Shown here piece after piece: positions 19,731-26,483 of a stretch of DNA of 64,000 nt. Made by a program: the position numbers and the translations under genes. The DNA is taken from positions 39,397,536 through 39,461,535 of the forward strand of contig NC_088645.1 in the NCBI RefSeq assembly GCF_964019385.1. The letters are read 5' to 3'. Under the pieces are notes generated by a model. It saw nothing but the letters and a program-made list of their open reading frames with translations. It was not told the DNA's origin and made no database searches. The DNA comes from Sycon ciliatum. Its lineage: Eukaryota; Porifera; Calcarea; Leucosolenida; Sycettidae. Every line of letters starts with the position of its first letter. Position 1 is the first letter of the stretch.

Positions 19731-19835
19731 CTAGTCGTCATCGGAGGTGGTTATCCGCACGGTCGTCTCCTGTTGCTGATAGACGTAATCCTCAGTCTCC
19801 ACTCTGATCGTGGTCTTTGTCTCTTCGCGCTCCAT
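19731..19835 (-). CDS. Micropeptide A of a tandem family (34 aa)
   Basis: Predicted transcript: exon 1 at 21656-21705 (no AUG), intron 19871-21655, exon 2 from 19870. The first AUG in the spliced RNA is at 19835, in a strong start context (A at -3, G at +4). It opens 34 codons ending TAG. An in-frame TAA five codons upstream means the ORF cannot be the tail of a longer protein. The peptide is acidic and Thr-rich: TKTTIRVETEDYVY, then ETTVRITT and a DDD end. It shares the core T-x-x-T-x-x-VET[DE]Dx[VI]Y…TT[VI] with peptides B (23223) and C (25931). There is no signal peptide or membrane segment. Function is unknown. Splice sites are inferred from sequence only. Confidence 0.6.
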   Translation of the reverse strand: MEREETKTTIRVETEDYVYQQQETTVRITTSDDD

Positions 19836-19896
19836 CCTGGCTGGCAGTTACGACGCGACGGGTGGACAGGCTGTCAGGCGCAGATCAAGCCAAGCA

Positions 19897-21227
19897 ACAC
19901 ACACACACACACACACACACACACACACACACACACACACACACACACACACACACACACACACACACACACACACACACACACACACACACACACACAC
20001 ACACACACACACACACACACACACACACACACACACACACACACACACACACACACACACACACACACACACACACACACACACACACACACACACACAC
20101 ACACACACACACACACACACACACACACACACACACACACACACACACACACACACACACACACACACACACACACACACACACACACACACACACACAC
20201 ACACACACACACACACACACACACACACACACACACACACACACACACACACACACACACACACACACACACACACACACACACACACACACACACACAC
20301 ACACACACACACACACACACACACACACACACACACACACACACACACACACACACACACACACACACACACACACACACACACACACACACACACACAC
20401 ACACACACACACACACACACACACACACACACACACACACACACACACACACACACACACACACACACACACACACACACACACACACACACACACACAC
20501 ACACACACACACACACACACACACACACACACACACACACACACACACACACACACACACACACACACACACACACACACACACACACACACACACACAC
20601 ACACACACACACACACACACACACACACACACACACACACACACACACACACACACACACACACACACACACACACACACACACACACACACACACACAC
20701 ACACACACACACACACACACACACACACACACACACACACACACACACACACACACACACACACACACACACACACACACACACACACACACACACACAC
20801 ACACACACACACACACACACACACACACACACACACACACACACACACACACACACACACACACACACACACACACACACACACACACACACACACACAC
20901 ACACACACACACACACACACACACACACACACACACACACACACACACACACACACACACACACACACACACACACACACACACACACACACACACACAC
21001 ACACACACACACACACACACACACACACACACACACACACACACACACACACACACACACACACACACACACACACACACACACACACACACACACACAC
21101 ACACACACACACACACACACACACACACACACACACACACACACACACACACACACACACACACACACACACACACACACACACACACACACACACACAC
21201 ACACACACACACACACACACACACACA
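19897..21227. repeat. Pure (CA)n microsatellite, 1331 bp
   Basis: About 665 uninterrupted CA units. The tract fills most of the intron of micropeptide gene A and ends about 26 bp from the predicted 3' splice site, so the intron RNA would carry a (UG)n tract there. All long His/Thr and Cys/Val frames across it are repeat translations. Confidence 0.98.
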
Positions 21228-21397
21228 AACAACGCACAGTACATGGAATTTGCAATGTTGATCGAAGCAGTGTAAACGCTATACGTTGGAGTGAATTTTA
21301 AAATAGGGTAACCGGGAGATGCGCAGCAACTCCATAAAGAATTTACTTCTCACACACTGCTCGTAGTCCTCGTACAAGAGTGCAGCAACATAAGAGA

Positions 21398-21449
21398 CGT
21401 GATAGAACGTTACGTGATAGAACGTTACGTGATAGAACGTTACGTGATA
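21398..21449. repeat. 15-bp tandem repeat
   Basis: About 3.5 copies of GTGATAGAACGTTAC, in the upper part of intron A. Confidence 0.85.
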
Positions 21450-21655
21450 AACACCCAAGCAACCAAATCTAAACCCAGTCACCGAAATTCGGTGCCGCCT
21501 TCATTAGAGCATACCAAACTAGTAGAAATGAACGCATGTATGTAGATGTACATACTGGGAAATTGACTGTCTCTGTGTGCATACAGTGTGATTGCATGAG
21601 TACTAGCAAAGAAGGTCACAGCAATCGCAAAGTACAATACTCTGGCTGGACGTAC

Positions 21656-21705
21656 CTTGTTGGGCGTTAGCGGGGAACTCAGACGGAGAAGATTCGCGAT
21701 GAACT
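21656..21705 (-). other. Non-coding exon 1 of micropeptide gene A
   Basis: Runs from the predicted start (A of TTCTCAGTTC) to the donor CCCAACAAG|GTACGT. It is 50 nt long with no ATG. The equivalent exons of genes B and C are 54 and 49 nt. Confidence 0.5.
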
Positions 21706-21737
21706 GAGAACATACCCCAACGGTCCAAGCGTTTATA
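21703..21737 (-). promoter_or_regulatory. Core promoter of micropeptide gene A (TATA + Inr)
   Basis: TATAAA (21737-21732 on the minus strand) lies 32 bp upstream of the initiator TCAGTT (A at 21705). This is the canonical animal TATA-Inr spacing. Confidence 0.55.
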
Positions 21738-21739
21738 GT

Positions 21740-25000: not shown

Positions 25001-25013
25001 TCAGGTGCAACTA

Positions 25014-25084
25014 TTCTTTCTAGTACTGGTGCTGAACCGCCGAAGTACCGTACTTCCGCGGCTTAGCACCAGTGCTAGAAAGAA
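25014..25084. ncRNA. Candidate miRNA-like hairpin or tiny MITE
   Basis: Two 34-nt arms (25014-25047, 25051-25084) pair with 30 Watson-Crick pairs, 2 G-U pairs and 2 mismatches around a 3-nt centre (CCG). The 71-nt length and scattered mismatches resemble an animal miRNA precursor, but the loop is very small. A short inverted-repeat element is equally possible. It lies between micropeptide genes B and C. Confidence 0.35.
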
Positions 25085-25799
25085 CCCCTGCTCATCTGAG
25101 TGGTGGCGAGCGTGGTGGTGTGTTTTGTTCGCGTTTTGCAGAGGGACAAGAGGTATTGATATGATTCGGACACCAATTTAAAGGAAGGTCTATATCCATT
25201 ACTAGTGGCTGGTTGATTGCATCTTCAACACTGAACGGTGTAGACATGCACAGAGTTCAGTGCACAATGTAATTACTATTTACCCATCGTGATCAACGAG
25301 TGGTTGTATTCAAGACGATGCATCTACTGTGTATTGCTAGCAACTAAAAAGGAGTTTGGCCCATGAAGCGTCCTCAGCAGACACAATTAATGTTATAATA
25401 ACTCATCATTCCTTTGCTACTAAGGGGTGTGTAAGCGCTCACATCGAACAAGGGTTTGGGGAGAGAGCTTTTGTAGTCCCAACTATGGCTCTGTGAAGAG
25501 CGAAGTGACCAGCGAAAAGTTAACCAACATAGGGATCACTCACACATACTCTGTATGCAGTCATGAACGGGCACACTCAGAAAGGTAAGGAATTTTCAGG
25601 CTTTGAATTCTATCTGTTCGTCAAGATAACTTTGAATGACATCTGGAAGGTAAGATCAAGAAGAACATGATTGTGGAGATCCGGCCATCAACTAGGAGTA
25701 CGTTGCACGGTGAAAAGAATGAGAGTATGGAGCATCACATGAACGAGAGGGTGCTCAATGCTAAGCCTCAAACATGCTATGCGGTAGTTGGTAGTCACA

Positions 25800-25828
25800 A
25801 GGAGAGAGAGAGGGGGGGGGGGGGGGTT
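25800..25828. repeat. GA then poly-G tract
   Basis: GAGAGAGAGAG followed by about 15 G, downstream of micropeptide gene C. Confidence 0.8.
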
Positions 25829-25930
25829 GAGTAAAGTGTACTACGCTCAACATATCTATGACGAAAAACGAAGGCTTACGACAACACGGATGGCTTATAT
25901 ACAATCATCGAAGGCAGTACGTGTATATCT

Positions 25931-26035
25931 CTACTCGGATTCGGTGATGGTCGTCTCCTCCACATAAATGGCGTCATCCGTCTCGACCACTTTCGTGATC
26001 TTCGTGATGGAGGTCGTAGAAGAGTCCCTGTCCAT
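25931..26035 (-). CDS. Micropeptide C of the tandem family (34 aa)
   Basis: Exon 2 starts at 26068 (acceptor CAATCCCCTCAG); 33 nt of leader precede the first AUG at 26035 (A at -3, G at +4). The ORF is 34 codons ending TAG, the same length as A. The peptide reads TSITKITKVVETDDAIY, then EETTITESE: acidic, with alternating Thr and Val/Ile that would favour a beta strand. Exon 1 is 26403-26451 and the intron 334 nt, without a CA tract. In all three genes the leader is 82-94 nt after splicing, with the peptide start as first AUG. I do not recognise the family. A longer protein joined through exon 1 is less likely, as that exon has no AUG. Confidence 0.6.
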   Translation of the reverse strand: MDRDSSTTSITKITKVVETDDAIYVEETTITESE

Positions 26036-26402
26036 GTTGAGAGGAAGGTTTGCTTGGTCGATGAGAACCTGAGGGGATTGCACACAAAACACAGTAGACG
26101 GGAGCTTTAGAAGCAATTCGAATTCAGGATGATAACAAGCACACGTGGACAGAGGGCGAGATCAAGGGGCCTGGTGAATCCTTGAAATACAAAATAAATA
26201 AAAAAAAACAATAAAAAAAGTTTTGGGTCCTCTTCACTCGGCAGAGATGATTCTAGGGAGCTGTACTCATTATGCCGAGAGGCGGGCTAACACCCCAGTG
26301 TGGAAATTTTCCCAAGACGAAGTGAACACAGTAGTAGTCGTACTGGGCTAAGTTGAAAAATATAAATAAAATAGAACACGGAGGTTGAAAAATTGTACTC
26401 AC

Positions 26403-26451
26403 TGTGGAGTGGAGAGGTAGATGTGGAGCGTTGAAGCAGTCGCAAGGAACT
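26403..26451 (-). other. Non-coding exon 1 of micropeptide gene C
   Basis: 49 nt from the initiator CCTCAGTTCC (A at 26451) to the donor CTCCACA|GTGAGT. The TCAGTTC initiator matches that of gene A. Confidence 0.45.
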
Positions 26452-26483
26452 GAGGGAATGTTCTCGGACTTTCGCGTCTTGTA
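26449..26483 (-). promoter_or_regulatory. Core promoter of micropeptide gene C (weak TATA + Inr)
   Basis: TACAAG, a degenerate TATA, starts exactly 32 bp upstream of the initiator A. The spacing is conserved with genes A and B even though the box has drifted. Confidence 0.4.

Follow-up and report, generated by a model that had tools for sequence, protein, structure and literature searches.

Three candidate tandem mini-genes encoding small acidic peptides in the sponge Sycon ciliatum

Gene prediction usually discards genes of about 33 codons, and a 64,000-nucleotide (nt) stretch of the genome of the sponge Sycon ciliatum (contig NC_088645.1, positions 39,397,536 to 39,461,535; the whole stretch is referred to below as the window, and positions are counted from its first letter) raises the question of whether complete protein-coding genes of this size lie within it. 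An earlier note, made from the letters alone, had pointed to three minus-strand open reading frames (ORFs) of 32-34 codons, here A, B and C, whose peptides share a VET[DE]Dx[VI]Y core and a TT[VI] block. The coordinates and codon counts agree with this description (Table 1), and core and block are both present in all three peptides, with eight invariant columns in their alignment (M, V, E, T, D, Y, T and T); a six-frame search of the window returned no fourth copy of the core motif. Judged from sequence, we read the locus as three tandem paralogous protein-coding mini-genes, and give this coding family, taken alone, a probability of about 80%.

Evidence for this reading comes from the way in which the copies differ. 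Between B and C, 42 of 93 bases differ over 31 codons, with 13, 7 and 22 of the differences at the first, second and third codon positions. Synonymous change has reached saturation, with a proportion of synonymous differences (pS) of 0.87 against a nonsynonymous distance (dN) of 0.41. The two peptides are identical at 16 of 31 residues, compared with a neutral mean of 8.2, and none of 5,000 neutral simulations reached 16, in a test based on three sequences and on an alignment picked by similarity. For gene A, 8 of the 14 codons of its core, a segment that was itself picked for its match, encode the same residue as in C (P = 0.022), and 8 of 14 the same residue as in B (P = 0.017). Given saturated synonymous change with a kept peptide in B and C, and a moderate result in A, the coding claim is strong for B/C and moderate for A. 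Selection on the peptide, as proposed in the earlier note, is thus clear for one pair and weaker for the third copy; by these comparisons the peptide has been kept while the DNA changed, a contrast that is strong for B/C and weak for A.

The three peptides also group together when set against the rest of the window. When each peptide was ranked against 1,692 C-terminal stretches of the window, anchored at stops and 25-34 residues long, its top two partners were the other two members of the family, with pair scores of 95 for C/B, 45 for C/A and 46 for B/A, and next-best non-family scores of 33 for C, 37 for B and 31 for A. In Smith-Waterman comparisons with composition-preserving shuffles, C/B reached a z of 13.2 (0 of 5,000 shuffles as high), B/A a z of 3.8 (12 of 5,000) and C/A a z of 3.3 (32 of 5,000).

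The predicted anatomy of the genes points in the same direction. Our predictions reproduce the architecture described earlier, namely an AUG-free first exon (49, 54 and 50 nt in C, B and A), one intron (334, 603 and 1785 nt) and an exon-2 leader (33, 40 and 35 nt). In all three cases the ORF is intact, shorter than 100 codons and opened by the first AUG of the predicted mRNA, in a context that has A at -3 and G at +4, exactly as had been claimed; at the minus-strand ATG rate, the absence of any ATG across 255 leader positions has a probability of 0.005. The predicted donors rank 85th (C), 23rd (B) and 15th (A) among the minus-strand 9-mers of the 64 kb, as scored with an approximate matrix on which the predicted exon boundaries rest, and the acceptors are those of the earlier gene model, taken over unscored. 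Divided by three, the leader lengths leave remainders of 0, 1 and 2, such that a coding leader would require three different intron phases in paralogues, and the intron therefore probably lies in the 5' untranslated region (UTR). Together with the in-frame TAA upstream of A, to which attention had been drawn before, these phases argue against a longer protein; the leaders of all three genes are probably untranslated and the ORFs probably not part of a longer coding sequence. With the selection test, the mutual top ranking and the probably non-coding leaders in hand, the earlier proposal of a paralogous family of very short proteins gains support from three sides.

Promoter sequences add to the picture for two of the genes. 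With both strands of the 64 kb counted, TATAAA followed by TCA[GC]TT within 22-45 nt occurs at two sites in all. One coincides with the predicted start of B and the other with that of A, and a strong donor follows 54 nt (B) or 50 nt (A) past the start. In first-order Markov simulations such pairs occurred at a mean of 0.27, and two were reached in 3 of 200 runs. The 20-mer at the start of A agrees with that of B in 15 of 20 positions, a better match than at any other of the 122 TATAA-anchored sites that remain when A's own is set aside (next best, 13). A focused TATA/initiator start is thereby predicted for A and B, whereas the TATA-like box that the earlier note had placed 32-33 bp before an initiator in all three genes is reduced in C to a weak TACAAG.

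Several observations weigh against the family reading and should be set beside this evidence. Gene C, although it has an initiator, shows no TATA[AT]A within 300 nt upstream of its donor, and, when unanchored, the three-way similarity of the start regions scored 39, compared with 41 for the best other triple from the same 1-kb upstream stretches, so that we rejected it as evidence. Peptide A resembles B and C weakly, the manner in which its core was picked and the matrix behind the exon boundaries count on the same side, and selection had to be judged from three copies only because no homologue was found in any other sequence of the protein database or the viral and prokaryote contigs. Structure models, made with AlphaFold2 for C and A, are similarly mixed: C is modelled with strands at residues 8-18 and 23-33 at a mean predicted local distance difference test score (pLDDT) of 81 but a predicted template modelling score (pTM) of only 0.34, and A without strands (pLDDT 64, pTM 0.17), a failure that may reflect an alignment of too few rows (three) in which A has gaps relative to B and C. 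A hairpin for the whole family, which the model of A fails to bear out, consequently cannot be claimed.

Among other accounts of the locus, we considered that the conserved stretch might be the last coding exon of a longer, tandemly duplicated protein, with an incidental AUG. The leader frame is indeed open in B and C, and B has an in-frame ATG ORF of 124 amino acids (23223-23597) that extends back through the TG-rich intron; set against this, the TAA in A, the three intron phases and, in two of three genes, a TATA/initiator of their own with a short AUG-free exon 1 (upstream exons were not systematically searched for) make such a protein unlikely. Upstream ORFs (uORFs) are typically short, conserved, first-AUG peptides in spliced leaders, and the three ORFs look like uORFs in just these respects, so that each could encode a nascent peptide regulating a main ORF further down the same transcript. 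The candidates for such a main ORF are few, however: unspliced minus-strand ATG ORFs of at least 60 amino acids number one between the C stop and the B start (72 amino acids, 24560-24778) and two between B and A (62 and 103 amino acids), and below A the nearest such ORFs have their ends no higher than 16698. A poly(A)-like element also stands close behind the stops of B and C. We regard a regulatory uORF as very unlikely.

The strong divergence of A, and a 1330-nt (GT)n tract in its intron that might harm splicing, would suit recently dead or decaying duplicates, or a family of non-coding RNAs whose peptide similarity survives as a vestige. Yet the ORFs are open and the start context is kept in 3 of 3, and a B/C peptide kept despite saturated synonymous change is unexpected of decayed copies (for A, P is about 0.02), which leaves decay quite unlikely. 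Chance resemblance of three unrelated short ORFs has in its favour the small size of the peptides and their abundance of T, V, E and D, which pushes scores up, as well as the few shuffles that did match the C/A and B/A scores; since none did so for C/B, and the window-wide ranking draws A, B and C together, we consider chance exceedingly improbable as an explanation of the three loci.

Searches for relatives placed the family among orphans, as far as they reach. In Pfam no peptide had a match above the cut-off, one of the three reaching YcxB at an E of 0.053 and 13.7 bits (cut-off 23.3), and the PDB held no significant relative (best E 0.77). The protein database yielded no candidate for either query, the C exon read as 45 amino acids or the three-row alignment, under a rule that demands three shared 5-residue words; B and C have two such words in common and A none with either, so this rule would not even link the three peptides to one another. 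Pattern matches in viral contigs (18) and prokaryote genome contigs (127) included none that was confirmed, in collections that are not meant for animal genomes. The literature on VETDD and on the family gave no description of such peptides, as judged by titles and abstract openings. The word undescribed, which had been attached to the family, accordingly stands only in the sense that Pfam, PDB, protein, viral and prokaryote searches returned no significant relative, homologue searches of this type reaching poorly for 33-residue peptides and not far into animal sequences.

By kind, A, B and C likely belong with the known small-ORF (smORF) microprotein genes. Like smORF-encoded microproteins with an mRNA of their own, they combine one conserved ORF of fewer than 100 codons per predicted short mRNA with a good AUG context and evidence of purifying selection, the last being clear for B/C and weaker for A. 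Many well-studied animal microproteins carry a hydrophobic or transmembrane segment, which the three peptides lack, and whereas tarsal-less/pri places several ORFs in one mRNA, the arrangement here is of three tandem genes. For these genes, moreover, we found no homologue outside the window.

The peptides themselves are acidic, as had been proposed, with isoelectric points of 4.1-4.2 and charges of -4.5 to -6.5 over 32-34 residues; they have no cysteine and a grand average of hydropathy below zero. Inspection of the N-termini (MDRDSS, MDGVSV and MEREET) showed no hydrophobic start and no signal sequence of the kind carried by secreted peptides (neuropeptides, toxins or antimicrobials), consistent with the earlier description of the family as free of secretion signals. 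The best reading is of a lineage-restricted family of small, acidic and putatively cytosolic peptides, perhaps folded as a beta-hairpin that bears an acidic-[VI]-Tyr motif. The invariant tyrosine stands in the contexts DDAIY, DDAVY and EDYVY, and in PMC546003 EEIYGEFF is given as a peptide substrate of tyrosine kinases, which similarly has acidic residues and then I or V directly before the tyrosine. This likeness is one of a short motif only, and the residues after the tyrosine vary (VEE, IQK and QQQ).

In the scheme that we propose, each gene would be transcribed separately into a short mRNA of about 240-280 nt (the sum of the predicted exons and the poly(A)-like site) and spliced once, in the 5' UTR, and translation of the first AUG would give a cytosolic, cysteine-free, acidic peptide. 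Such a peptide may then bind a partner through a beta-hairpin with its turn at TDD, through the invariant tyrosine in its acidic-acidic-x-[VI]-Tyr context, or through both, a role that we put forward tentatively and hold to be doubtful. Far more speculative, and improbable as matters stand, is the idea that these lineage-restricted, stand-alone peptides, consisting of hardly more than a turn that folds and a kinase site of the acidic-[VI]-Tyr type, would serve tyrosine kinases or their readers as diffusible decoy substrates or pseudo-docking sites, with dosage set through tandem duplication and perhaps also through splicing of the 5'-UTR intron under UG-repeat control.

The repeat in question lies in gene A, whose predicted intron consists of (AC)n/(GT)n over 1330 nt without interruption (19897-21226), up to a point 26 nt short of the 3' splice site. 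A tract of this length is either a striking expansion or an artefact of the assembly. At the same place before its 3' splice site, gene B has 31 TG/GT dinucleotides per 60 nt, a density reached by 1% of other minus-strand 60-mers, and gene C has 12, reached by 23%; with C devoid of a tract, we ruled out a TG tract before the 3' splice site as a family-wide feature. According to PMC12171016, UG-rich sequence upstream of the 3' splice site affects CFTR exon 9 through TDP-43. Genes A and B resemble that case in having a UG-rich tract directly upstream of the predicted 3' splice site, and differ from it in that the tract precedes the sole coding exon, extends over 1330 nt in A and is absent from C.

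The 3' flanks of B and C share a short element. Exact matches to the 14-mer ATGATTGTANATAA occur twice in the window, in these two flanks only, and with up to two mismatches 5 matches were found against 1.8 expected. We take ATGATTGTANATAA to be UGUA plus an AAUAAA-like hexamer, resembling a poly(A) signal or a Pumilio site; the element is likely a poly(A) region and possibly a Pumilio site. The 3' flank of A has ACTAAA at +36, preceded by several UGUA. A Pumilio reading from the short motif was rejected: the window has 25 copies of UGUANAUA where 7.3 would be expected, 14 of these copies read TGTACATA, and so common a motif means little alone.

Table 1. Predicted features of the three mini-genes (window positions).
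Feature	Positions	Strand	Remarks
Gene C TATA-like TACAAG	26478-26483	minus	weak; at expected distance from start
Gene C predicted non-coding exon 1	26403-26451	minus	49 nt; start at TCAGTT; donor ACA|GTGAGT
Gene C predicted 5'-UTR intron	26069-26402	minus	334 nt
Gene C exon-2 leader	26036-26068	minus	33 nt
Gene C peptide coding sequence	25931-26035	minus	34 amino acids; start is first AUG of predicted mRNA
ATGATTGTATATAA, 3' flank of C	25895-25908	minus	23-36 nt past stop; UGUA plus AUAA
Gene B TATAAA	24046-24051	minus	33 nt before start base in TCA[GC]TT
Gene B predicted non-coding exon 1	23965-24018	minus	54 nt; donor AAG|GTAAAT
Gene B predicted 5'-UTR intron	23362-23964	minus	603 nt; TG-rich directly before 3' splice site
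Gene B exon-2 leader	23322-23361	minus	40 nt
Gene B peptide coding sequence	23223-23321	minus	32 amino acids; start is first AUG of predicted mRNA
ATGATTGTAGATAA, 3' flank of B	23155-23168	minus	55-68 nt past stop; with GATAAA
Gene A TATAAA	21732-21737	minus	32 nt before start base in TCA[GC]TT
Gene A predicted non-coding exon 1	21656-21705	minus	50 nt; donor AAG|GTACGT
Gene A predicted 5'-UTR intron	19871-21655	minus	1785 nt; mostly pure (TG)n tract
Gene A exon-2 leader	19836-19870	minus	35 nt; contains in-frame TAA
Gene A peptide coding sequence	19731-19835	minus	34 amino acids; start is first AUG of predicted mRNA

The surroundings of the three genes hold further elements, and by its gene content we read the window as nuclear DNA of animal type. 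Between B and C lies a foldback (25014-25084) with 35-nt arms and a 1-nt centre; for the minus strand across 25005-25095 the folding energy is -53.9 kcal/mol (z -9.8). A search of the window at up to 3 mismatches found its arm nowhere else, and it may be either a hairpin RNA or an element resembling a miniature inverted-repeat transposable element. A set of related foldback-like elements is scattered at 17878-18017, 32235-32392 and 43127-43288, and a near-perfect inverted repeat (38134-39325) has arms of about 445 nt that are 99.6% identical. A long interspersed nuclear element ORF with RVT_1 (4718-7621) encodes a protein that, across 91% of its length, shares 98% identity with one encoded on an ENA contig. 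The pol of a long terminal repeat (LTR) retrotransposon (9780-13484) lies within 8318-13889, an element whose 255-bp end pieces (8318-8572 and 13635-13889) are 100% identical, indicating a probably recent insertion; further matching pieces stand at 8972-9089 and 13891-14008. Also present are a secretin-type seven-transmembrane fragment (59629-60345), two tRNA-Ser(TGA) genes in neighbouring repeats that are 98.7% identical (46528-47058) and several microsatellites. Two minus-strand ORFs (33141-33698 and 35810-36370) are weakly related, at 31% over 77 amino acids (E 6e-4 in a two-sequence comparison), have no Pfam match up to E 1, and are perhaps another tandem orphan family.

If expressed, the three loci would be complete animal genes of about 33 codons, recognised through selection at the codon level together with core promoter, splice sites and the context of the start. 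The 1.3-kb tract of pure GT by the 3' splice site of A would then constitute a natural experiment in repeat-controlled splicing, and the family as a whole would offer a clean test of the minimum size of a duplicated, selected animal protein, as well as an indication of the number of genes of this kind that annotations overlook.

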